The notes beneath the pieces were generated by a model. It was not told the DNA's origin, did no database searches, and was given only the letters and a program-made list of their open reading frames with translations. Below, one piece after another: positions 3-57,308 of a stretch of DNA of 64,000 bases. Position 1 is the stretch's first letter. Each line of letters starts with the position of its first letter. Source of the stretch: Myxococcales bacterium (GTDB lineage Bacteria; Myxococcota_A; Polyangia; Polyangiales; Polyangiaceae); the NCBI GenBank assembly GCA_013297655.1, contig JAAFHV010000014.1:1-64000 (forward strand), written 5' to 3'. The position numbers were made by a program, and so were the translations under genes.

Positions 3-440
3 GACGCGACGAAGCTCGCCGACCTCGTCCCCGACTGGGCCGAGCGCCACACGATGCTTTGTGGCCCCGCGGGGATGATGGAATCCCTCGCACCCCATTG
101 GGCACGAGCGGGCCTCGCGCGTCGTCTGCAAATGGAACGTTTCGTCGCCCCGCCGCGCCCGGCTGCAGCGCCGGGTGCGACCCCGAGGGTGATGCTCACC
201 ATGCTCCCCACTGGAAAGGTCGCCGTCTCCGAAGGGGGCGCCACGCTTCTGGAGGCCCTCGAGGCCGCGGGCGAGACACCGGCTTTCGGGTGCCGAATGG
301 GCATCTGCAACACGTGCGTTTGCCGAAAAAAGAGCGGCGTCGTCGAGGACTCGGTGACGGGCGCGCTCTCCAGCGAGCCCGACGAGGACATTCGCCTCTG
401 CACGACCCGCGCGCGCTCGGACATCGAGCTGGTTTTTTGA
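3..440 (+). CDS. Ferredoxin-NAD(P)H reductase, C-terminal part with 2Fe-2S domain (5' end outside window)
   Basis: The reading frame is open from the left edge, so the N-terminal flavin domain lies outside the window. The visible part starts with the end of the NAD(P)H-binding domain (motif MLCGPAGMME). It continues into a plant-type ferredoxin domain with the cluster ligands CRMGICNTC and a later LC. This order (FAD/NAD reductase, then 2Fe-2S) is typical of oxidoreductases that feed electrons to membrane desaturases and oxygenases. The next gene, 11 bases downstream, is a desaturase, so the pair probably forms one electron-transfer unit, as described for mycobacterial Rv3230c/DesA3. The family call is firm; the partner is inferred from context. 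Confidence 0.85.
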   Translation, partial: DATKLADLVPDWAERHTMLCGPAGMMESLAPHWARAGLARRLQMERFVAPPRPAAAPGATPRVMLTMLPTGKVAVSEGGATLLEALEAAGETPAFGCRMGICNTCVCRKKSGVVEDSVTGALSSEPDEDIRLCTTRARSDIELVF

Positions 441-451
441 AGGAGCCCACC

Positions 452-1543
452 ATGACCTCGCAGAGCCGAACCTTGACCGCAGAAGAGACCGAAGCCTTCG
501 GTCGCGAGCTCGACGCCGTGCGAAAACGCGCCCTCGACGACCTGGGCCAGCGCGACGTCGATCATATGAAGTCGACGATGCGCCTATGCCGCAGAGCCGA
601 AGGGGCGGGCCGCGCGCTGCTTCACTTCGGCGTCGATCCGGTCACGTTCGTCGCCGGCACGGCTTCCCTCGCCGCCGCCAAGATCCTCGACAACATGGAG
701 ATTGGCCACAACGTGATGCACGGCCAATACGACTTCAGTCGTGATCCGGAGCTCGCCTCGCGCACGTTCGAGTGGGACATCGCCTGCCCCTCCGTCGACT
801 GGCGCCACTCCCACAACTACGAGCACCACACGTTCACCAACGTGCTCGGGCGCGATCGCGACGTGGGGTATTCGTTCTTGCGGGTCGTAAAGGAGCAAAA
901 CTGGAACCCGAGCCACCTCGCGCAGCCGATCACGGCGTCGGTGCTGGCGCTCTTTTTCCAGTGGGGCGTGGCGATGCACGATCTGCGGATCGCGGAGACG
1001 CTACGCGGCGAACAAACGGTGCGTGAGCTTTGGACACGAAGCGGCCCGTTCGCGCGAAAAGCGGTGCGCCAGCTCACGAAAGACTACGTGTTCTTCCCCG
1101 TGATCGCGGGCGTCAACGCACCACGGGTCGCGCTCGGAAACCTGGTCGCGAACGGAGTCCGCAACGTGTGGACGTTCGCGATCATCTTCTGCGGCCACTT
1201 CCCCGAAGGGGTCGCGGTTTACACCGTAGAAGAGACACGGGAAGAGAGTCGCGGGGCCTGGTACCTGCGCCAGCTCAACGGCTCCGCCAACATCGAGGGC
1301 AGTCCCGCGTTTCATCTCATGAGTGGCCACTTGAGCCACCAAATCGAGCACCACTTGTTCCCGGACGTGCCCGCCGCGCGTTACCCGGAGCTCGCCCCCG
1401 AGGTCCGCGCCATCTGCGAGCGTTACGGCCAGGCCTACAACACGGGCAGCTTCGCGAAGCAGCTCGGCAGCGTCGCCAAGCGCCTGCTCTCGAACGCGCT
1501 CCCCAGCCGCAAAGCACGGTCCGAAGTCGCGCTCGCCGCGTAG
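452..1543 (+). CDS. Membrane fatty acid desaturase
   Basis: A 363-residue integral-membrane acyl desaturase that introduces a double bond into an acyl chain using O2 and reductase electrons. All three histidine boxes are present: HNVMH (about 86-90), HNYEHH (121-126) and HQIEHH (296-301), which together hold the di-iron centre. The ATG at 452 is preceded by AAGGAG, which overlaps the stop of the upstream ferredoxin reductase, so the two genes are surely co-transcribed. A longer open frame upstream of this ATG only shadows the reductase. Substrate and double-bond position cannot be read from sequence. The gene ends just before a 25-bp tandem array that fills the junction with the convergent clp gene. 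Confidence 0.9.
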   Translation: MTSQSRTLTAEETEAFGRELDAVRKRALDDLGQRDVDHMKSTMRLCRRAEGAGRALLHFGVDPVTFVAGTASLAAAKILDNMEIGHNVMHGQYDFSRDPELASRTFEWDIACPSVDWRHSHNYEHHTFTNVLGRDRDVGYSFLRVVKEQNWNPSHLAQPITASVLALFFQWGVAMHDLRIAETLRGEQTVRELWTRSGPFARKAVRQLTKDYVFFPVIAGVNAPRVALGNLVANGVRNVWTFAIIFCGHFPEGVAVYTVEETREESRGAWYLRQLNGSANIEGSPAFHLMSGHLSHQIEHHLFPDVPAARYPELAPEVRAICERYGQAYNTGSFAKQLGSVAKRLLSNALPSRKARSEVALAA

Positions 1544-1595
1544 AGCGGAGCGAAGCGAGAACCCGAGATCGCGTCCGCGCGAAAGCCCGGGCTCG

Positions 1596-1803
1596 AGGCT
1601 CGCGCTTCCGAAGCGACACGAGGCTCGCGCCTCCGAAGCGACACGAGGCTCGCGCCTCCGAAGCGACGCGAGGCTCGCGCCTCCGAAGCGACACGAGGCT
1701 CGCGCCTCCGAAGCGACACGAGGCTCGCGCCTCCGAAGCGACGCGAGGCTCACGCCTCCGGAGCGACGCGAGGCTCGCGCGTCCGGAGCGGCGCGAGGCT
1801 CAC
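1596..1803. repeat. Tandem array of a 25-bp unit (8 full copies plus a partial)
   Basis: Units start at 1596, 1621, 1646, 1671, 1696, 1721, 1746 and 1771, with a partial copy at 1796. Each begins AGGCTCGCG, has CTCCGAAG in the middle and ends GCGACRCG; the last copies vary slightly. Each junction in the ACGCG variant forms the inverted repeat CGCGAG-g-CTCGCG. The array fills the space between two convergent genes and its partial copy runs over the stop codon of the Clp ATPase. There are no unique spacers, so it is not a CRISPR. A related 25-bp array lies at 9690-9873. A terminator, nucleoid or replication-slippage element is possible; function is unknown. Confidence 0.95.
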
Positions 1804-4361
1804 ATCATGAGCGAAAAGCCGCTCTCGACCCGCTTTTTTCCCGCTGACCGCGCGGTCACGATGATCGCGCCGTCGCGTGCGTCGACGACCGCGCCGTCGC
1901 CACGCACGATCTCGCCGCGGAGGAGCATCTCGGCCACCTTGGCCTCGACGAGGCGACCTATCGTGCGTCGCATCGGCCGCGCGCCGAGGCTCTTGTCGAA
2001 GCCGCCGAGGTCCAAGAGCGCGCCGATGGCGGCCTCCGTCACGTCGAGCGAGACGCCACGTTGCACCATGAGCTCCGCGCCGAGCCCGGTGACGATGCGG
2101 CGCGCGACCTCCGCGACGTCGTCACGTCCGAGAGGCGCGAACGCGAGCACCTCGTCGATACGGTTGTAGAGCTCGGGTGGCAGCGCATCGCGCGCCGCCT
2201 TCGACATCGCTTCCTCGTAAGCCGAAGCATCCCGCGCGACGGCCTTGTCGCCGAAGCCGATCCGCCCGCGAGGCCTCGTCTCTTCTTCGGATACGTGCGC
2301 GCCGATGTTCGACGTGAGGAGCAACACCGTATTCGTGAAGTCGACGGTGCGACCTTTTCCGTCCGTCATGCGACCCTCGTCGAAGACCTGCAAGAAGCCC
2401 TCGAGCACGTCGCGGTGCGCCTTCTCGATCTCGTCGAGGAGGATCACTTGGTAGGGCCTGCGACGCACCGTTTCGGTGAGCTGGCCACCCGCGTCGTGCC
2501 CCACGTAGCCGGGGGGCGCACCCACGAGGCGCGCTATCGCGTGCCCCTCGGCATACTCGCTCATGTCGATGCGAGTCATCGCCGACTCCGAGAAAAATAG
2601 GCATTCCGCGACGGCTTTGGCGGTCTCGGTTTTGCCCACTCCCGTCGGTCCCAAAAGCAGGAACGTGCCCACCGGGCGCTTCGATCGGAAGCCGGACGCG
2701 TTCCTTCGCAGCACGGTCGCGATCTTCGCCAGCGCGTGGCCATGGCCCACGATCCGCTCGGCGAGGAGCTCCTCGAAGCGCAACAGGCGGTCGGCGTCGG
2801 TCTCCAGGAGGCGCTCTTCCGGAACACCGGACAGCTCGCTCACCACCTCGGCCACGCCCTCCTGCGATACCGACTTTTCTCCGCGTCGACGCGCGCGTGC
2901 GCCGGCGAGATCCAAGATGCTTATCGCTTTGTCCGGGAGCGCGCGGCCAGGCAGGTAGCGCACGCTCCAGGTGATGGCGCGCGCGAGTGCCTCTTTCGTG
3001 TACGTCGCCTCGTGGTGCTTTTCGTATACGGGGCAAAGCTGCTCGATCGCGAGGAACGCGTCCTCCGGGCCGAGCTCCACCACCTCGATCGGCGAGAAGC
3101 GACGCGCGAGCGCGGGATCGTTTTCGACGTAGCGGCGGTACTCGTCCACCGTCGTCGCGCCGATGCAGGGGAGCTCCCCCTTCGCGAGCGCGATCTTGAG
3201 CTCTGCTTGCGCCTCGTCGCCGGCGTCCGGTCCGAAGAGGGTGTGGATCTCGTCGAAGAAGATCACGATGCGACCGCCCGCCTTCTTCACCTCGGCGCGG
3301 ATCTGACCGAGGCGCTCGGCGAGCGAGCCGCGCACCCCGGTGCCGGCCATGAGCTGCGAAAGCTCGATCTCGATGACCAGCCGGTCATCCAATGAAATCA
3401 CGTCTTTACGGTCGGCGATGCGCTGCGCGAGGCCGTGCACCACGCTCGTCTTGCCGACCCCCGCTTGCCCCACGAGGCAGGGGTTGTTCGAGGTCCGCTT
3501 CGCGAGCACGTCGAGGGTGCGCTCGACCTCTTCGTCGCGACCGACGACCGGATCGAGCTCTCCACGCGCCGCCATCAGGGTGAGGTTTTTCCCGATCGCG
3601 GCGAGCAGCGGGTACTCCTTCGCCGAGATCTCGAACGCGTCGGTCTTGCTCTCGCGCTTCGCCTTGGCCGGGGGCGGCGCGCTCTTCGAGGCAGGCGAGG
3701 GGGTCGGCGCGGTCACGAGCACCGGGGGCACCACGAGCACCGGCGGCGGCGGGCGCGTCATCTCCTTCGGCACGATCGACGGCGTGACGAGCGGCTTCGG
3801 CGCGGTCCACGTGGTGCGCGCGCGGTGCGGCTCGCCGGACTTCGAGGGCTGCTGGAGCCCGAGGGCCGACGGGCGCGAAAGAGGCTCGTTTCGTAGGGGA
3901 GAAGGCTCCACTTGGCGCCGCGGGAGGGTCGCGCCGGTCGCGAGCTGCAACGTCGCTGCGCGAAGCTTCGCCACGTCGGTCCCGCACTGGACCATCGCGC
4001 GGTACGCGGCAGACGTCGTGTCGTGGCAGAGCGCGAAGAGGAGATGAATCGCGGTCGGCGCGCGCTTGTCGAGCTCCCCCTTGGCGAGGGGGGCGCGCTG
4101 CACCGCGCGCTGCGCGAACTCACGCGCACGGGTGACCGCACGAGCCAACGCGTCGGGAGAAGCGTCCGTCGCCACGCGCGCCGCACGGAGGAGCGTGTCG
4201 CCATCGAGACGCCGATCGGCGAGAAGCTGCGACACGTCACCGGGTTTCCCGGAGAGCGCCGCGAGCACGTGGGCCGTCGAGAAACGCTCTCCACGATCCT
4301 TGGCGAGCCCTTCGGCGACCTTACGAATCTCGGCGAGCTCCGGCTCGGAACGACTGGTCAT
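1800..4361 (-). CDS. clpA: ClpA-type AAA+ unfoldase, ATP-binding subunit of Clp protease
   Basis: An 853-residue protein with two AAA+ modules. NBD1 has Walker A GQAGVGKT (about 298-305) and Walker B IFFDEIH. NBD2 has GPTGVGKT (571-578) and ILLDEIEKAH. The modules adjoin without a ClpB or ClpC middle domain, which fits ClpA. An IGF tripeptide at about 701-703 matches the ClpP-docking loop, so it probably feeds substrates to ClpP. The N-terminal part (1-140) looks like a Clp N domain. It is joined to NBD1 by an unusually long Pro/Lys-rich linker (about 150-245). No clpS or clpP is in the window. The symbol is a best fit; a specialised ClpA/ClpC paralogue is possible. Confidence 0.85.
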   Translation of the reverse strand: MTSRSEPELAEIRKVAEGLAKDRGERFSTAHVLAALSGKPGDVSQLLADRRLDGDTLLRAARVATDASPDALARAVTRAREFAQRAVQRAPLAKGELDKRAPTAIHLLFALCHDTTSAAYRAMVQCGTDVAKLRAATLQLATGATLPRRQVEPSPLRNEPLSRPSALGLQQPSKSGEPHRARTTWTAPKPLVTPSIVPKEMTRPPPPVLVVPPVLVTAPTPSPASKSAPPPAKAKRESKTDAFEISAKEYPLLAAIGKNLTLMAARGELDPVVGRDEEVERTLDVLAKRTSNNPCLVGQAGVGKTSVVHGLAQRIADRKDVISLDDRLVIEIELSQLMAGTGVRGSLAERLGQIRAEVKKAGGRIVIFFDEIHTLFGPDAGDEAQAELKIALAKGELPCIGATTVDEYRRYVENDPALARRFSPIEVVELGPEDAFLAIEQLCPVYEKHHEATYTKEALARAITWSVRYLPGRALPDKAISILDLAGARARRRGEKSVSQEGVAEVVSELSGVPEERLLETDADRLLRFEELLAERIVGHGHALAKIATVLRRNASGFRSKRPVGTFLLLGPTGVGKTETAKAVAECLFFSESAMTRIDMSEYAEGHAIARLVGAPPGYVGHDAGGQLTETVRRRPYQVILLDEIEKAHRDVLEGFLQVFDEGRMTDGKGRTVDFTNTVLLLTSNIGAHVSEEETRPRGRIGFGDKAVARDASAYEEAMSKAARDALPPELYNRIDEVLAFAPLGRDDVAEVARRIVTGLGAELMVQRGVSLDVTEAAIGALLDLGGFDKSLGARPMRRTIGRLVEAKVAEMLLRGEIVRGDGAVVDARDGAIIVTARSAGKKRVESGFSLMM

Positions 4362-4460
4362 CGGTGTAGGGCTCGCACGCTCCGGCCCGCCGGGCCAAAA
4401 AAAGGGCGCCGCGTTGCCTCGTAAACCGCGTCTTTACCCGAGAAATCGTCGCCGACCGGC

Positions 4461-4488
4461 TTGCCACACCAGGAACCGTGCCTATAAC
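4461..4488 (+). promoter_or_regulatory. Predicted sigma-70-type promoter of the tetR-RND operon
   Basis: TTGCCA (4461-4466) and TATAAC (4483-4488) are separated by 16 bases. Transcription would begin around 4494-4496, inside the palindrome described next and about 13 bases before the preferred ATG at 4508. The mRNA leader would be very short. Confidence 0.5.
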
Positions 4489-4503
4489 TGACCCGCCGGT
4501 CAG
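4488..4503. promoter_or_regulatory. Predicted TetR operator
   Basis: A perfect inverted repeat, CTGACC-cgcc-GGTCAG, overlaps the end of the predicted -10 box and the predicted start site. It ends 4 bases before the start codon of the TetR gene. Repressor bound here would block polymerase directly, so autorepression of the whole efflux operon is the simple reading. Confidence 0.6.
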
Positions 4504-4507
4504 AAAC

Positions 4508-5227
4508 ATGTCACGCGTCGCCGATCCACGAACCCGTATCTCGCTCCTCCGCGCCGCCGAGGAGATCTTCGCGAAGAAGGGCCTCGAAGCCGCCAAGGTC
4601 GAGGACATCGCCAAGGTCGCCGGCGTGTCGAAGGGCGCGTTCTACCTCCACTTCGAAACGAAGGAGGAGGCGTTCCTTCATGTGGTGGAGGCGTTCCTCG
4701 CTCGCTGCAGCACGCTCCTCGCGCAGCCCTGCGGCGACGACCTGCCCACGCGCCTCGAAGACTTGATGGAGCTCGGGCTCGAGCACGACATCCAGCTCTT
4801 CGAGTTCTTTTGGCAAAACCGCGCCATCCTCTCCATCCTCAACACCTGCAACGGTCCCTACGCCTACCTGATGGGCTCGTTCCGCAAGGATCTGCAGGAG
4901 AACGTGAAACGGGGAGTCGAGTTCTTCGTCGAGCGCGGGGCCTACCGCAAAGACCTCGAGCCGAACCTCGTCGCCACTCTCCTCATGGGTGCCTACAGCG
5001 AGCTCGCCACCGCGATGCTCTCGAGCGAGAAGAAGCCCCCCCTCCGGGATTGGCTCCTCGCCGCGCGGCGCATCTTTTCCCTTGGGCTCGCGTCCGATCG
5101 CTCCCCCTGGGAACGGCAAGACGTAAGCCACGTCTCCCTCCCCGATATCCCCGACGCTCTCCCGTCCGAGCCCGCCGAGAGGCCCCGCCGCGCAGCACGA
5201 GCAGGCCGCGCCCGCACCGCGAGATAA
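4508..5227 (+). CDS. TetR/AcrR-family transcriptional regulator
   Basis: A 239-residue repressor-like protein. The N-terminal helix-turn-helix contains DIAKVAGVSKGAFYLHF, the signature of the TetR family; the rest is the variable ligand-binding domain. The ATG at 4508 is preferred over a GTG at 4478 because the latter would place the promoter and operator palindrome inside the coding sequence. It is the first gene of a run with an efflux adaptor (11 bases downstream) and an RND pump. It therefore probably represses them until a pump substrate binds. The last 40 residues are Arg/Ala/Pro-rich and outside the usual fold. Confidence 0.88.
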   Translation: MSRVADPRTRISLLRAAEEIFAKKGLEAAKVEDIAKVAGVSKGAFYLHFETKEEAFLHVVEAFLARCSTLLAQPCGDDLPTRLEDLMELGLEHDIQLFEFFWQNRAILSILNTCNGPYAYLMGSFRKDLQENVKRGVEFFVERGAYRKDLEPNLVATLLMGAYSELATAMLSSEKKPPLRDWLLAARRIFSLGLASDRSPWERQDVSHVSLPDIPDALPSEPAERPRRAARAGRARTAR

Positions 5228-5238
5228 GGAAAAGAAGA

Positions 5239-6420
5239 ATGGACTCGAATCTGCCGTTGGAGCGCGCCGTGGAGCCTACCCCTGCACCACCGAAGGGCGG
5301 CCGCGCCATCGTGGTGGTGGGCCTCGTGATCGGGATCGCCTTCGCGGGGCTCATGGGCTCCAAGGTCGTCAAGGCCTTGGACAAGCGCAAAGCCACCGCC
5401 GTCGAGCGCGACACCACCGCCGCCGAGCTCGCGAAGAAGCTCCCCGTCGAGGTCGCGAGCCCCGTGCCCATGAAGTGGAAGCCGCGCGTCGAGCTCACCG
5501 GCACCCTCCGTCCGTGGCGCGAGGCCGACATCGGCTTCGAGCTCGCCGGCCGCTTGGTGAAGCTGAACGTGCAAACCGGCGACAAGGTACGCGCAGGTAT
5601 GCAGCTCGCCGTGCTCGACGCGTCGCGCGCGGGCGCCCAGGTGAACCAGGCCGTCGCGCAGACCAAGGCCGCCGAGGCGAACCTCGCCCTCGCCGAGGAC
5701 AACCTGAAGCGCACCGAGTCGCTCGTCGCTACCAAGTCGATCCCGGAGGCGCAGGCCGAACAGGCTCGTCAACAGGTCGCGCTCGCTCGCGCGCAGCTCG
5801 ACGGCGCGAAGGCCAGCACCAGCCTCGCGCAACAAGGCGCCGGCATGCACGCGATCGTGGCGCCCTTCGAGGGCATCGTCACCAAGGCGCCGACCGCGAT
5901 CGGCAGCGTGGTGAACCCGGGCGCGCCGCTGATTCGCCTCGAAGACGTGTCGCGGTTCCGCCTCAGCGCGTCGGTCACCGAGGAAGACGCGCCCCTCGTG
6001 CACGTGAACGCGCCGGTCAACATCACCTACCAAGCGCGCACCGTCGCGGGGAAGGTGGTCGCCGTCGTGCCCTCGCTCGATCAGGCGACCCGCCGCGCGC
6101 CGGTCGAGATCGAGGTCCCGAACGATCCGAAAGCGCCGCTCCTCGGCTTCGGCTTCGTGCGCGCCCACATCGACGGCCGCGACGAGGTCGACGCCCTCCG
6201 CGTGCCCTCCGCTGCTCGTCGCGCCGGCTCCCAGAACGAGGTCATCAAGCTCGTCGACGGCAAAGCGGTTCGCACCAAGGTGGCCCACTTCGTGGACACC
6301 GACGGCACCTGGATCGTGACGCACGGGCTCCTCGAGAGCGACAAGCTCGTCCTCAATCCCTCGGACGACATCCACGACGGCGACACCCTCGAAATCGCCC
6401 CCTCGAAGCCTGCCAAGTAG
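5239..6420 (+). CDS. RND efflux periplasmic adaptor (membrane fusion protein, HlyD/AcrA type)
   Basis: A 393-residue adaptor that links an inner-membrane RND pump to an outer-membrane channel. It has one N-terminal membrane anchor (about 25-45) rather than a lipobox. It then has a lipoyl-like half motif (GRLVKLNVQTGDKVRAG), a coiled-coil hairpin rich in Ala/Glu/Gln, the second lipoyl half (IVAPFEGIVTKAPTAIGSVV) and a beta-barrel region. The start at 5239 follows AAGGA, which overlaps the stop of the TetR gene. The pump gene follows after 75 bases. No TolC-like gene is in the window, so the outer-membrane partner must be encoded elsewhere. Confidence 0.9.
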   Translation: MDSNLPLERAVEPTPAPPKGGRAIVVVGLVIGIAFAGLMGSKVVKALDKRKATAVERDTTAAELAKKLPVEVASPVPMKWKPRVELTGTLRPWREADIGFELAGRLVKLNVQTGDKVRAGMQLAVLDASRAGAQVNQAVAQTKAAEANLALAEDNLKRTESLVATKSIPEAQAEQARQQVALARAQLDGAKASTSLAQQGAGMHAIVAPFEGIVTKAPTAIGSVVNPGAPLIRLEDVSRFRLSASVTEEDAPLVHVNAPVNITYQARTVAGKVVAVVPSLDQATRRAPVEIEVPNDPKAPLLGFGFVRAHIDGRDEVDALRVPSAARRAGSQNEVIKLVDGKAVRTKVAHFVDTDGTWIVTHGLLESDKLVLNPSDDIHDGDTLEIAPSKPAK

Positions 6421-6495
6421 GTCGCGTCGAGGGCTGTCTCCACGGCCCCCAGCATTGTCGCAGGCCGCTTCTTTTCCGCACGGAACAGGGACGCC

Positions 6496-9400
6496 ATGAA
6501 CATTTCCGAGATTGCGATCAAGCGCCCGGTCTTCACCGTGATGGTCACTCTGGCCCTCATGGTGCTCGGCTTCATGGGCTATCAGAACCTGGGGACCGAC
6601 CTCTTCCCGGACGTGAGCTTTCCTGTCGTCTCGGTGACCGTGCCGTATCCCGGCGCGGCCCCGGGCGAGGTGGAGCAGCTCGTCACGAAGCCTCTCGAGG
6701 ACGCGATCGTCTCCCTCAACGGCATCGATCGTCTGAAGACCTACTCGCGTGAAGGCGCCTCTCAGGTCGTCGTCATCTTCAAGCTCGACGTCGACATCCA
6801 AAAGGCCGCCACCGAGGTGCGCGAGCGCGTCGCGCAGACCCGCTACAAGCTGCCTACCGAGACGAAAGAGCCCATTATTTCTCGTATCGACGTCGGCGCC
6901 GCGGCCGTCGTCACGTACACGCTCGAGGGCGGCGGGCGCTCGCTCTCCGAGACGGCCAAGTTCGCGCGCGACGTGGTGAAGCCGTCGCTCGAGCAGGTCG
7001 ACGGCGTCGCCTCGATCAACGTGCTCGGCGGCGCGGAGCGCGAGGTCCACGTCGATTTGGACATGGCCCGCATCGACGCGCTGAAGCTCTCCCCGATTGG
7101 CATTCTCCAGCAGCTCAAGGCACAAAACCTGAACGTGCCGGCCGGCCACTTCGACGAGGGCGCAAAAGAGATCAGCGTGCGCACCGTGGGTGAGCTCACG
7201 AAGGTGGAGCAGATCCGCGACATCATCGTCGCGACGACGAAAGACGGCTCGAGCGTACGCCTTCGCGACGTCGCCACCGTGGAAGATGGATTCGAGGAGC
7301 TCCGCACCCGCATCCGCACGAACGGCCAGCCCGCGGTGTCGTTCGACGTCGTGAAGCAGTCGGGCAAGAACACGGTCGCCGTCGCGGACGCGGTGAAGGC
7401 CAAGCTCGCCGCCCTCGAGGCCACGTTCCCGAAGGGTTACAAAACGTCTGTCATCGTCGATCAGTCGAAATTCATTCGCGAAAATGCCCACGAGGTGGAG
7501 GTCGCGATCGTGTTCGGCGGCGCGATGGCGATCCTCGTCATCCTCGTGTTCATGCTCGACCTGAGGTCCACCCTCATCAGCTCGGTCGCGCTGCCCACGA
7601 GCGTCATCTCGACGTTCTTCGTGATGTACGCGCTGAACTTCACCCTCAACATGATGACGCTGCTCGCGCTCTCCCTCGCGATTGGCCTCCTCATCGACGA
7701 CGCGGTGGTCGTTCGCGAGAACATCTCCAAGCACCTCGAGCGGGGCGTCGATCCGCGCACAGCGGCCCTCGAGGGCACGAAAGAGATCTCGCTGTCCGTC
7801 CTCGCGACCACGCTCACCATCGTGGCGGTCTTCGTGCCGGTCGCGTTCATGAGCGGCATCGTGGGGCAGTTCTTCCGTCAGTTCGGGCTCACCATCACGG
7901 CGGCGGTGCTCGTCTCGCTCTTCGTCGCGTTCACCCTCGACCCCATGCTCTCGAGCCGGTTCTCGAAGGCGCACGTGCCAGGCGCGAAGGACCCCTTCAT
8001 GCCCGTGAAGCGCCCGTTCTTGTGGGTGTTCGAGAGCATCGAAGGCCTCTATCGCCGCGTGCTCAAGTTCGCTCTCTCGCACAAGATTATCGTCGGGATC
8101 GGCGCGTTTTTGGCTCTCTTCTCGATTGGCCCGGTCGCTGGGCTCATGGGCAACGAGTTCGTGAACGCGGAAGATCGTGGCCAGTTCGTGCTCGAGGCCG
8201 AGCTCCCCGCCGGCACCAAGCTCGCCGAGACGGCGCGCCTCGCCTTGCCTGCCGAGCTGAAGCTCCTCGAGGACAAGCGCTTCATCACGGTGCTCTCCAC
8301 CCTCGGCAAGAACGCCGAGGTAAACAAGGTGCACTGGCGCATCGTCACGGTGCCGAAGAGCGAGCGCACGATGGGCATCAACGAGCTCAAGGACGTCGCG
8401 CGCAAAGTCGCCTACGAGGCGCTCCCCGGCGCGAAGGTCACCGTGACCGACCCGCCGTTCGTGGAGGGCGCGAACACCGAAGCGCCGATCATGATTCAGG
8501 TCCGCGGCGCCACCTACGAAGAGCTCGCCCCCCTCGCCCACGAGTTCGAGTCGGCGATGAAGCGCATCCCCGGGATCACCGATTTGCAGGTGAAATATAG
8601 CCCCGGACAGCCCGAGCTCCGCGTCGGGGTCGATCGCGACAAGGCCGCTCGCGCGCAGATCCCGGTCGCTCAGATCGCCCTCGCGCTCCGCGCCGCCGTC
8701 GAAGGCGACGAGGCGGGCAAGATGCGGCAAGGCAAAGACGAAGTGCCCATTCGTGTGCGCCTCCGGCAGGGCGATCGCTCCACCGTGGACGAGGTGTTGC
8801 GCATGACGGTGCAGACCCCGCAGGGCCCGATGGCGCTCGAAGATCTCGCGACGGTGGAGCGCGGCGAAGGCCCGAGCGTCATCGAGCGCGAGGACCGCGA
8901 ACGTCAGATCGTGATCTGGGCTTCGACCAAGGGCCGCTCCCTCGGCGAGATCGTGCCCGAGCTCTCCACCGCGTTCGGCGCCATCAAGATGCCCCCTGGC
9001 GCCTCGTATCACTACGACGGACAAATCCGGCAGATGACGGAGACGAACGGATCCATGGGCGCCGCGATGGGCCTCGGCGTCATCTTCATCTATCTGATTC
9101 TCGCCTCTCAGTTCGAGAGCTTCATTCACCCGTTCACGATCATGCTCACTCTGCCGCTCGGGTTCGTCGGCGCGTTTTATGCGCTCTTCGTCGCCGAACG
9201 CACCATGGCGATGGGCGCCATGATTGGCATCATCTTGCTGATGGGGCTCGTGACGAAGAACGCGATTCTGCTCTTGGATCGTGCGCTCGTGCGGGTGCGC
9301 GAGCACGGGGAAACACCGCTCCAAGCCATCCTCGAAGCAGGGCCCGAGCGTTTGCGTCCTATCTTGATGACCTCGGCGGCGATGATCCTCGGCATGCTCC

Positions 9401-9609
9401 CCACCGCCACGTCGAACGGCGAAGGCAGCGAGTTCCGCTCTCCGATGGCGATCGCCGTCATCGGTGGTGTCATCAGCTCCACGATCCTCTCTCTCGTCGT
9501 CGTCCCGGTCGTGTACCTCGCGATCGAGAACAGCAAAGCGTTCTTCGCGAAGCTCTTCGGGATCAAACCGAAGACCGAAGAGCCGCACGCGCCCGCCCCC
9601 GCGGAATAG
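6496..9609 (+). CDS. RND-family multidrug/hydrophobe efflux pump (AcrB/HAE1 type)
   Basis: A full-length 1037-residue proton-driven pump with the usual N-terminal signature (ISEIAIKRPVFTVM), two large periplasmic loops and twelve expected membrane helices. The proton-relay residues are present: the Asp pair at 401-402 in GLLIDDAVVVREN and Lys 921 in GLVTKNAILLLDRA. It assembles as a trimer in the inner membrane with the adaptor encoded just upstream. Expression is probably under the TetR repressor two genes upstream. The substrate cannot be predicted. The gene is followed by the second 25-bp tandem array. A 1531-codon antisense frame across it is a GC-rich shadow. Confidence 0.93.
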   Translation: MNISEIAIKRPVFTVMVTLALMVLGFMGYQNLGTDLFPDVSFPVVSVTVPYPGAAPGEVEQLVTKPLEDAIVSLNGIDRLKTYSREGASQVVVIFKLDVDIQKAATEVRERVAQTRYKLPTETKEPIISRIDVGAAAVVTYTLEGGGRSLSETAKFARDVVKPSLEQVDGVASINVLGGAEREVHVDLDMARIDALKLSPIGILQQLKAQNLNVPAGHFDEGAKEISVRTVGELTKVEQIRDIIVATTKDGSSVRLRDVATVEDGFEELRTRIRTNGQPAVSFDVVKQSGKNTVAVADAVKAKLAALEATFPKGYKTSVIVDQSKFIRENAHEVEVAIVFGGAMAILVILVFMLDLRSTLISSVALPTSVISTFFVMYALNFTLNMMTLLALSLAIGLLIDDAVVVRENISKHLERGVDPRTAALEGTKEISLSVLATTLTIVAVFVPVAFMSGIVGQFFRQFGLTITAAVLVSLFVAFTLDPMLSSRFSKAHVPGAKDPFMPVKRPFLWVFESIEGLYRRVLKFALSHKIIVGIGAFLALFSIGPVAGLMGNEFVNAEDRGQFVLEAELPAGTKLAETARLALPAELKLLEDKRFITVLSTLGKNAEVNKVHWRIVTVPKSERTMGINELKDVARKVAYEALPGAKVTVTDPPFVEGANTEAPIMIQVRGATYEELAPLAHEFESAMKRIPGITDLQVKYSPGQPELRVGVDRDKAARAQIPVAQIALALRAAVEGDEAGKMRQGKDEVPIRVRLRQGDRSTVDEVLRMTVQTPQGPMALEDLATVERGEGPSVIEREDRERQIVIWASTKGRSLGEIVPELSTAFGAIKMPPGASYHYDGQIRQMTETNGSMGAAMGLGVIFIYLILASQFESFIHPFTIMLTLPLGFVGAFYALFVAERTMAMGAMIGIILLMGLVTKNAILLLDRALVRVREHGETPLQAILEAGPERLRPILMTSAAMILGMLPTATSNGEGSEFRSPMAIAVIGGVISSTILSLVVVPVVYLAIENSKAFFAKLFGIKPKTEEPHAPAPAE

Positions 9610-9689
9610 CTTCGCTCGAAAGCAGAGGCTTCTCGAGTCTCGTGCGTGGTGGGCGTGGTCTTCGGTCTAGAGGACCCGCTCGCCCTGCG

Positions 9690-9873
9690 AGGCTCGCGGT
9701 TCGAGAGCGACGTGAGGCTCGCGACTCGAGAGCGACGTGAGTCTCGCGGTTCGAGAGCGACGTGAGTTTCGCGGTTCGACAGCGACGTGAGGCTCGCGAC
9801 TCGAGAGCGACGTGAGTCTCGCGACTCGAGAGCGAGGTGAGGCTCGCGGTTCGAGAGCGACGTGAGTCTCTCG
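9690..9873. repeat. Second tandem array of a 25-bp unit (7 full copies plus a partial)
   Basis: Units start at 9690, 9715, 9740, 9765, 9790, 9815 and 9840, with a partial copy at 9865. Each begins AGGCTCGCG (or AGTCTCGCG), has RYTCGAGAG in the middle and ends GCGACGTG. Length and end sequences match the array at 1596-1803, while the middle bases differ. It lies in a convergent junction between the RND pump and a TlpA-like gene on the other strand. Confidence 0.95.
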
Positions 9874-9895
9874 ACCGTTCGAGGCTTGTTCTTGC

Positions 9896-10390
9896 CTAGC
9901 TCGAGGGCGCGGTGGCCGCGACCACGCTGTCGACCGAGGCGCCCGGTGCCGCGGTCCAGACGACGTGGCCTTCGCTGTCGAGGACCAGCGTGGCGGGGAG
10001 CGTTTTCACCCCCAGCTCACGACCGAGCGCGCCGCCACGATCGATCAAAAAGGGACTTTTGACTCCCCACGAGGCGAGGGCCTTCTTCGCGTCGTCCGTG
10101 CTCTCGCCGTCGGCGAGGACCGCGACGAGCACGAGCTTCGCGCCGTTCGTCTCGAGGGCCGACTGCTTCGCGACGAGCGCCGGCACGCTCTCTTTGCACG
10201 GCGCGCAGGTGGGGCCGAACGCGTCGAGCACGGTGACCCTCGCGCCGGTGATGGGCACGTGCACGAGCGAGCCGTCGCTGCTCGGGAGATCGAGGCTCGC
10301 CGCGTGCCCTTCGGCCAAGGGAGCCTTTGGCGCCCCACATCCTGCGACAGCCAACGTGAAGAAAGCCGAGAAGAGAACAGCGAGGCGCAT
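9896..10390 (-). CDS. TlpA/redoxin-like thiol-disulfide lipoprotein
   Basis: A 164-residue envelope protein with a lipoprotein signal (LAVAGC at about 13-18) and a thioredoxin-like domain. The redox-active motif is TCAPCKES, a CxxC matching TlpA/ResA proteins. The later GVKTLPATLVLD contains the cis-Pro strand of the fold. It probably reduces or shuffles thiols in the periplasm, for example in cytochrome c maturation or protection of secreted proteins; partners are unknown. The start at 10390 begins a normal signal peptide, whereas a longer upstream frame is arginine-rich noise. An OmpA-type lipoprotein lies upstream on the same strand, 74 bases away. Confidence 0.8.
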   Translation of the reverse strand: MRLAVLFSAFFTLAVAGCGAPKAPLAEGHAASLDLPSSDGSLVHVPITGARVTVLDAFGPTCAPCKESVPALVAKQSALETNGAKLVLVAVLADGESTDDAKKALASWGVKSPFLIDRGGALGRELGVKTLPATLVLDSEGHVVWTAAPGASVDSVVAATAPSS

Positions 10391-10464
10391 AGGTTTTGCG
10401 GTCGAAGATGGGTGTGGTTTCGTCGAGGCGAACCGAGCGACGGGGCGGCGAATCGTCGAATCGA

Positions 10465-56351: not shown

Positions 56352-57308
56352 TTACGGGACGACGAGATCGCCTCCGACCATGGCGTTGAGGATCGTTGCG
56401 TCGACGGTGGTGTTGCCCACACTCGTCGTGCCGTGCGACTCGCTCGACGTGGAGACACGATGGGTGCCCGATCCGAGCAGCGCGATCGCCGCGGCGGGGA
56501 CGACAAAAGAGCCCGCGCTCGCCTGCGCTTGGCAGTGCACGAAGGGCCCTACGTTCGAGCCATTGGTGCCTTTTCTGTTGAGATGGAGCAGCACCTCGCC
56601 CCTCGCCGGCCCGTTCACCGTCCACCCGAACGTGAGGTCGGACGAACCCGAAGCGCTCGTCGGGAGCGCGACCGCGACGTTCGAGGGAGTGGGCACGATC
56701 ACCGTGAACGGGGGAAGCTCGCTCGTGGCGTTCGAGGCGATACGAATGCTCTCGTTGCCAGTCGACCACCAAGGCGTATTGCTGCCGAAGGTCGCCGCGG
56801 CGCCGCTCGGCTGAATCGGCGCGAGCACCATCGGCGAAGGAAACGAGCCGCCGCTGATGACGAGGCCGGTGGGCGGAGCGATCACCGTCTCGGAGCCGGC
56901 GACAGGACCGCAGTGCTTCGTGAACACGCTGCACGCGCCGATCGCGGTGGGGGTGCAATCGGGCGACGTATCGAACACGGCGCCGTGGCCCGCCGAGGTG
57001 AACGCGACGTACTTCGTCGCCGCGAGCGGGCTCTCGTCGTTGCGAACGAGAATGGACACCTTGGTCCGCGCGAGGCCGGCATCGGTGGGCGTGGGGATGG
57101 GCGTGGTCCCCGCGTCGGTTGGCGTGGGCGTGAGGCCCGCGTCGGTGGGGTTCGGCGTGGGGGTGGTGCCGGCATCGGTGGGCGAGGGCGAAATGCCCGC
57201 GTCGTCAGCGGCGGGCGCGCCGCTCCCGATCTCTACCCGGCCCGTGCACGCCGCGGAGAGCACGCCGATGGCCACGCTAGGAATCGCGAAAAGATAAAGC
57301 TTTTTCAT
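56352..57308 (-). CDS. Lipoprotein with PTDAG repeats, first gene of the ECF operon
   Basis: A 318-residue lipoprotein: signal MKKLYLFAIPSVAIGV ending in LSAAC. Residues 40-80 are a low-complexity linker in which PTDAG recurs with TP and PNP spacers, probably a flexible spacer on the surface. The rest is strand-rich with three Cys and no known family. GGGAG six bases before the ATG abuts a perfect 16-base palindrome. The gene starts the four-gene operon and is followed after 3 bases by the barrel-like protein gene. Confidence 0.75.
   Translation of the reverse strand: MKKLYLFAIPSVAIGVLSAACTGRVEIGSGAPAADDAGISPSPTDAGTTPTPNPTDAGLTPTPTDAGTTPIPTPTDAGLARTKVSILVRNDESPLAATKYVAFTSAGHGAVFDTSPDCTPTAIGACSVFTKHCGPVAGSETVIAPPTGLVISGGSFPSPMVLAPIQPSGAAATFGSNTPWWSTGNESIRIASNATSELPPFTVIVPTPSNVAVALPTSASGSSDLTFGWTVNGPARGEVLLHLNRKGTNGSNVGPFVHCQAQASAGSFVVPAAAIALLGSGTHRVSTSSESHGTTSVGNTTVDATILNAMVGGDLVVP

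Follow-up and report, generated by a model that had tools for sequence, protein, structure and literature searches.

The 64,000-nucleotide stretch analyzed here (the window; positions 1 to 64,000 of contig JAAFHV010000014.1, assembly GCA_013297655.1, Myxococcales bacterium, family Polyangiaceae) contains two tandem arrays of a 25-bp repeat. As an earlier note on this DNA had stated, both arrays are located in convergent junctions: array 1 lies between a fatty acid desaturase gene (+) and a gene for a ClpB-like AAA+ ATPase (-), and array 2 lies between genes for an AcrB-type resistance-nodulation-division (RND) transporter (+) and a redoxin (-) (Table 1). Copies of the repeat are dispersed throughout this genome and are also found in a metagenome-assembled genome (MAG) of another genus, Polyangiaceae bacterium P-RSF-IL-17. 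We argue below that the repeats are likely to be very small mobile elements.

Table 1. Repeat arrays and adjacent genes in the window
Feature	Position	Strand	Basis
Array 1, eight 25-bp units, consensus GAGGCTCGCGCCTCCGAAGCGACAC	1595..1794	+	TRF, unit listing, PWM matches
Final GAGGCT of array 1, repeating the first 6 bp of the unit once more	1795..1800	+	Sequence; same anatomy at 43/47 sampled loci
Array 2, seven 25-bp units, consensus GAGGCTCGCGGTTCGAGAGCGACGT	9689..9863	+	TRF, unit listing, PWM matches
Final GAGTCT of array 2, degenerate form of GAGGCT	9864..9869	+	Sequence
Fatty acid desaturase, left of array 1	437..1543	+	PF00487; stop 51 bp before array
ClpB/ClpC-like AAA+ ATPase, right of array 1	1800..4361	-	PF07724, PF10431; stop codon overlaps terminal GAGGCT
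AcrB-type RND transporter, left of array 2	6496..9609	+	PF00873; stop 79 bp before array
Redoxin/thioredoxin-like protein, right of array 2	9896..10391	-	PF08534
TRF, Tandem Repeats Finder; PWM, position weight matrix.

Anatomy of the repeat

Tandem Repeats Finder placed array 1 at 1594-1801 (period 25, 8.3 copies, 95% matches) and array 2 at 9689-9870 (period 25, 7.3 copies, 87% matches). The terminal GAGGCT of array 1 is followed by CACATC, and the T that ends this motif also opens the triplet TCA, which on the reverse strand is the stop codon of the ClpB-like gene; the terminal GAGTCT of array 2 is followed by CTCGAC. The two array consensi agree at 18 of 25 positions in the same register, in line with the 17 to 18 given in the earlier note. 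The best agreement among 49 other registers and orientations was 14, and 4 of 20,000 letter shuffles scored 18 at their best rotation and strand. The proposal that the arrays belong to one related family, descended from a common ancestor and locally homogenized, is likewise supported by our analysis: across 27 arrays, copies within an array were closer to each other (identity 0.936) than in shuffled sets (mean 0.889, maximum 0.900).

Beyond these two arrays, we used a genome sample of 1.68 Mb, taken in stretches of which part were chosen for carrying arrays; this choice should leave junction type unbiased but precludes an estimate of copy density. Genes were called by codon usage in our own analysis rather than taken from curated annotation. 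Each unit consists of a 24-bp core, GAGGCTCGCGCCTCC(A/G)GAGCGACG, and a spacer of 1-4 nt, which together measure 25 bp in this genome and, in most cases, 27 bp in the MAG. The claim of a fixed 25-bp period needs qualification: it holds for arrays 1 and 2 and for 154 of 175 sampled spacings, whereas the remaining steps are 23 bp (17 cases), 24, 30, 34, or 35 bp, and spacings in the MAG range from 25 to 28 bp.

A locus has the general form (GAGGCTCGCGCCTCCRGAGCGACG + 1-4 nt)n, followed by a GAGGCT-like motif. At 43 of 47 independent loci in the sample, whether single copies or arrays, a lone nucleotide (mostly C or T) separates the last core from GAGGCT or a close variant. Similarity among loci stops after this motif, and no comparable match is present on the upstream side or at control positions. 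The flanking similarity takes the form of a direct repeat in which the left copy is fixed as GAGGCT and the right copy varies, which is not what a simple target-site duplication would produce. Copies are arranged exclusively head to tail in all 27 arrays of at least three copies (0/27 with mixed orientation). The best hairpins formed by a single unit have stems of 4-5 bp and differ between variants and arrays.

Other features of the sampled sequence are recorded here for completeness. A terminator-like hairpin with a T-rich tail, TCTCGACCGTTCGAGG, sits right where array 2 ends (window 9869-9884, +); it may be the RND gene's own terminator, in front of which array 2 came to lie. A further tandem repeat, with a 60-bp period and 27/33-bp sub-periods, is found at window 57068-57204. 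Two minor repeated 18-mers, GACGAGCGCAGCTCGGAC and AAGTCCCTGACGAGGGAC, occur at 5-6 loci each in the genome sample and possibly represent other small repeat families.

Distribution across genomes and placement relative to genes

The pattern GAGGCTCGCGNNTCNNNAGCGAC at up to two mismatches has 427 copies in the 9.9-Mb genome, compared with 7 for the reversed pattern, and a position weight matrix applied to 1.38 Mb gave 190 matches of at least 10 bits, compared with 3 in the control. Confinement of the unit to the window, which the earlier note had named as one outcome that would tell against a family, is therefore excluded. Among 107 other genomes searched in the taxonomic family, the MAG is the one carrier, and a contig-level pattern scan had only P-RSF-IL-17 contigs among the matches listed. 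The repeat was not found beyond this genome in a 377-genome sample of the phylum, and no copies were present in IMG/VR or in phage and plasmid collections. Our search of the open-licence literature found no prior description, consistent with the suggestion that the family may be undescribed.

The genome is a 546-contig draft that is 97.6% complete. Several array-carrying contigs (C42, C65, C164, and others) start inside arrays, and in 79 evenly drawn contigs the first 300 bp were always free of copies. Based on the former observation, the assembly is probably interrupted at arrays, which may be longer than they appear here.

The association with convergent ends that the earlier note had proposed to check extends well beyond the window. 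Convergent junctions hold 10 of the 21 arrays of at least three copies, although they make up 15% of intergenic base pairs (p = 4e-4). A gene 3' end borders 17 of the 21, at a distance of 3-69 bp, and six of seven co-directional arrays share the orientation of the genes. None of these arrays is inside a gene. In a count of loci, 8 of 59 are inside genes in this genome versus 15 of 24 in the MAG (p = 2e-5). We propose that, because the 25-bp unit shifts the reading frame, arrays survive in intergenic DNA near gene 3' ends and hardly anywhere else. Unit length would thus explain the difference in placement between the two genomes, as far as a comparison of two genomes can suggest.

Insertion into genes and a proposed mode of spread

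Copies in the MAG are mostly single (71 of 110), and cores are identical over 24 bp in 82 of the 110. The bases after single copies are GGA, then R-A-G-G-Y-T. GAGGYT with at most one mismatch is found at offsets 1-3 in 28 of the 71 single copies, compared with 0-2 at other downstream offsets or upstream positions. Coding sequence clearly flanks 18 copies on both sides on the same strand. Of these, 15 preserve the frame and remain open (p = 2e-5), and two of the three frame-shifted in-gene copies coincide with a TGA stop to which the core contributes its GA. An adapter or assembly artifact is disfavored by this frame keeping and by the diverged arrays of the same core in a separate genome.

We compared proteins containing the repeat with their homologues to look for empty sites. 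A LysR-type regulator in the MAG reads EVKRSLS-RRSGGASLS-LERF across the element, and eight of nine homologues, which are 40-63% identical, contain an exact 9-residue gap there. In the closest empty alleles the sequence is CTG TCG CTC GAG, in agreement with the flanks of the insert. Gaps at the element are also consistent with insertion in Aat (14 residues), in EgtB (12 residues), and, for most homologues, in an esterase (8-21 residues). In addition, a Ser/Thr kinase (L143:9803-9826 in the MAG) holds an older variant copy, TETASARRRSGGAGLVIGTPGYMSPEQ, in its activation loop, and most homologues are shorter at this position.

At four MAG loci (L141, L146, L151, and L223), copies just after the start codon encode (S/F)RRSGGASL before a hydrophobic stretch. 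These inserts extend or alter apparent signal peptides, with a possible effect on export. We considered whether RRSGGASL near N termini is instead a conserved signal-peptide motif and rejected this idea because all 24 nucleotides are conserved, including third positions, and because copies in other frames and on the other strand also occur.

Based on these observations, we consider it likely that the repeats are a family of very small mobile elements that insert 5' of a sequence similar to their own first bases. In the proposed mechanism, one whole unit would insert directly 5' of a chromosomal motif like the first six bases of the unit (GAGGCT, loosely RAGGYT). Because GAGGCT also begins each inserted copy, every insertion would leave a fresh target, and repeated insertion, with help from slippage or from unequal crossing-over of identical units, could build head-to-tail arrays. 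Selection would then sort the sites: the 27-bp unit of the MAG could survive within genes as a 9-codon in-frame insert, whereas arrays of the frame-shifting 25-bp unit would be kept in intergenic DNA by gene 3' ends, especially between convergent genes. Target choice would be driven by self-similarity. Insertion may be continuing today, the identity of 82 MAG cores being a sign of recency, and the arrays probably have no dedicated function. With slightly less than even confidence, we also suggest that this self-targeting unit of 25-27 bp is among the smallest mobile units known, that it spreads without a Y1 transposase, and that its length modulo 3 decides between residence in genes (27) and in intergenic arrays (25).

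Several points weigh against mobility. No mobilizing enzyme was identified: the Y1 transposase family (PF01797) has no matches in this genome and three weak matches in the MAG, and neither reverse transcriptases nor IS110 transposases are more abundant than in relatives that lack the repeat. The LysR empty site was deduced from homologues with 40-63% identity, not from an almost identical allele, because the comparison included no genome of the same genus. At the esterase, the length of the site varies among homologues, one of which is longer there. Both genomes are drafts, one a MAG and the other in 546 contigs, with genes called by codon usage. Finally, the similarity at the target could partly reflect decayed second units.

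How pieces of DNA too short to encode anything are able to move is an old open question, and very small mobile repeats are known in few phyla. The family described here offers a simple system, with one core, defined boundaries, and a recognizable target, and the two genomes represent different stages: near-identical copies are scattered in one, and arrays have been amplified in the other. Through such repeats, enzymes and regulators can gain nine residues without loss of the reading frame, and a dispersing element, not local slippage alone, may give rise to tandem arrays.

Alternative explanations and comparison with known repeat systems

A variant of the mobile-element reading concerns the machinery and requires no enzyme. 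Microhomology template switching at replication would copy a unit out of an array already present into junction-like sites, and slippage would expand it. This idea accommodates the resemblance of the target to the unit junction, the transfer of always one whole unit, the strict head-to-tail order, and the lack of a candidate enzyme among the Y1, reverse transcriptase, and IS110 families. However, target matches often comprise just four of six bases, and the presence of the repeat in 2 of 108 genomes would be unexplained without a specific factor. We regard template switching as rather unlikely, though it fares better than the explanations that follow.

We next consider whether the repeat is a degenerate CGTC-tagged repetitive extragenic palindromic (REP) sequence, moved in trans by a tyrosine transposase (Y1, or REP-associated tyrosine transposase [RAYT]). 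The CGTC-REP superfamily carries the end tag CGTC (or TGTC/CCTC). The reverse complement of the core, CGTCGCTCCGGAGGCGCGAGCCTC, starts with CGTC, array 1 units having mostly TGTC, and CGTC-REPs are also found in genes and convergent junctions (PMC3733652). However, CGTC-REPs have an 8-9 bp stem, a 4-5 nt loop, and a CCA-like tail, and occur predominantly as head-to-head dimers, with head-to-tail pairs negligible (PMC3733652). The repeat does not show this stem, loop, and tail. Because its stem is 4-5 bp instead of 8-9 bp and its copies are never head to head, the repeat is not a CGTC-REP despite its CGTC end. With no Y1 transposase found in this 97.6%-complete genome, movement of a REP-like element by such an enzyme appears improbable.

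A functional cis-element, such as a bidirectional terminator, a 3' untranslated region stabilizer, or a site for a chromosome-organizing protein, is an explanation to which we give similarly little credence. It would fit the enrichment near gene 3' ends and convergent junctions and the gene orientation of six of seven co-directional arrays, and array 2 RNA gives a more stable fold than shuffled sequences (z = -3.5). In contrast, the value for array 1 is -1.6, the hairpins are not conserved between the arrays, and there is no Rfam match. Nor is there a terminator excess: the region contains six terminator-like sites versus 5.1 in shuffles, and no intrinsic terminator (a GC-rich stem followed by a T run) lies inside the arrays. 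REPs share the same placement at gene 3' ends and convergent junctions without needing a shared function (PMC3733652), and MAG copies are mostly single, with many in genes. Since 106 of the 107 family relatives lack the repeat and one relative carries in-frame copies within genes, a dispersing, mobile-looking element fits better than the terminator or chromosome-organizing element that the earlier note had suggested.

Ordinary minisatellites (variable-number tandem repeats) arising by independent local duplication of similar GC-rich sequence would share the head-to-tail, homogenized arrays typical of slippage, but this origin is very hard to reconcile with the sharing of one 24-bp core by dozens of unrelated, unlinked loci and by a second genus, with single copies that have precise boundaries, and with a clean insertion in a gene.

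Among mobile or dispersed repeats, Rickettsia palindromic elements and intragenic CGTC or GTAG REPs resemble the repeat, as it occurs in the MAG, in making short in-frame insertions in unrelated protein genes, and their intergenic copies likewise favor gene 3' ends and convergent junctions (PMC3733652). Those elements are clear palindromes, whereas the repeat is hardly palindromic, forms no stable stem-loop, and adds 25-27 bp per insertion. REPINs and their RAYTs provide a precedent for tiny nonautonomous repeats with hundreds of copies per genome (PMC3116915, PMC3733652). The repeat differs in lacking inverted pairing of units and the GTAG of RAYT-mobilized REPs, and PF01797 has no matches in this genome. 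No terminal inverted repeats like those of insertion sequences or miniature inverted-repeat transposable elements were found in the unit, and the units abut with spacers of 1 nt here and 1-4 nt in the relative, instead of the similar-sized unique spacers of CRISPR arrays.

Cyanobacterial small dispersed repeats (SDRs), reportedly described by Elhai et al. in 2008 (Genome Res 18:1484), offer a further comparison. To our knowledge, no transposase is known for SDRs. SDRs are considered here on the basis of two citing papers, PMC2884548 and PMC3116915, the first of which describes them as about 20 bp long, tandemly repeated, and possibly mobile. The repeat is similar in being a dispersed sequence of about 20-27 bp in variable-number tandem copies that is probably mobile, with the evidence of insertion coming from the related MAG. 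It differs from SDRs in sequence and phylum, and its own features are the in-frame insertions in genes and a GAGGCT target that resembles the element itself.
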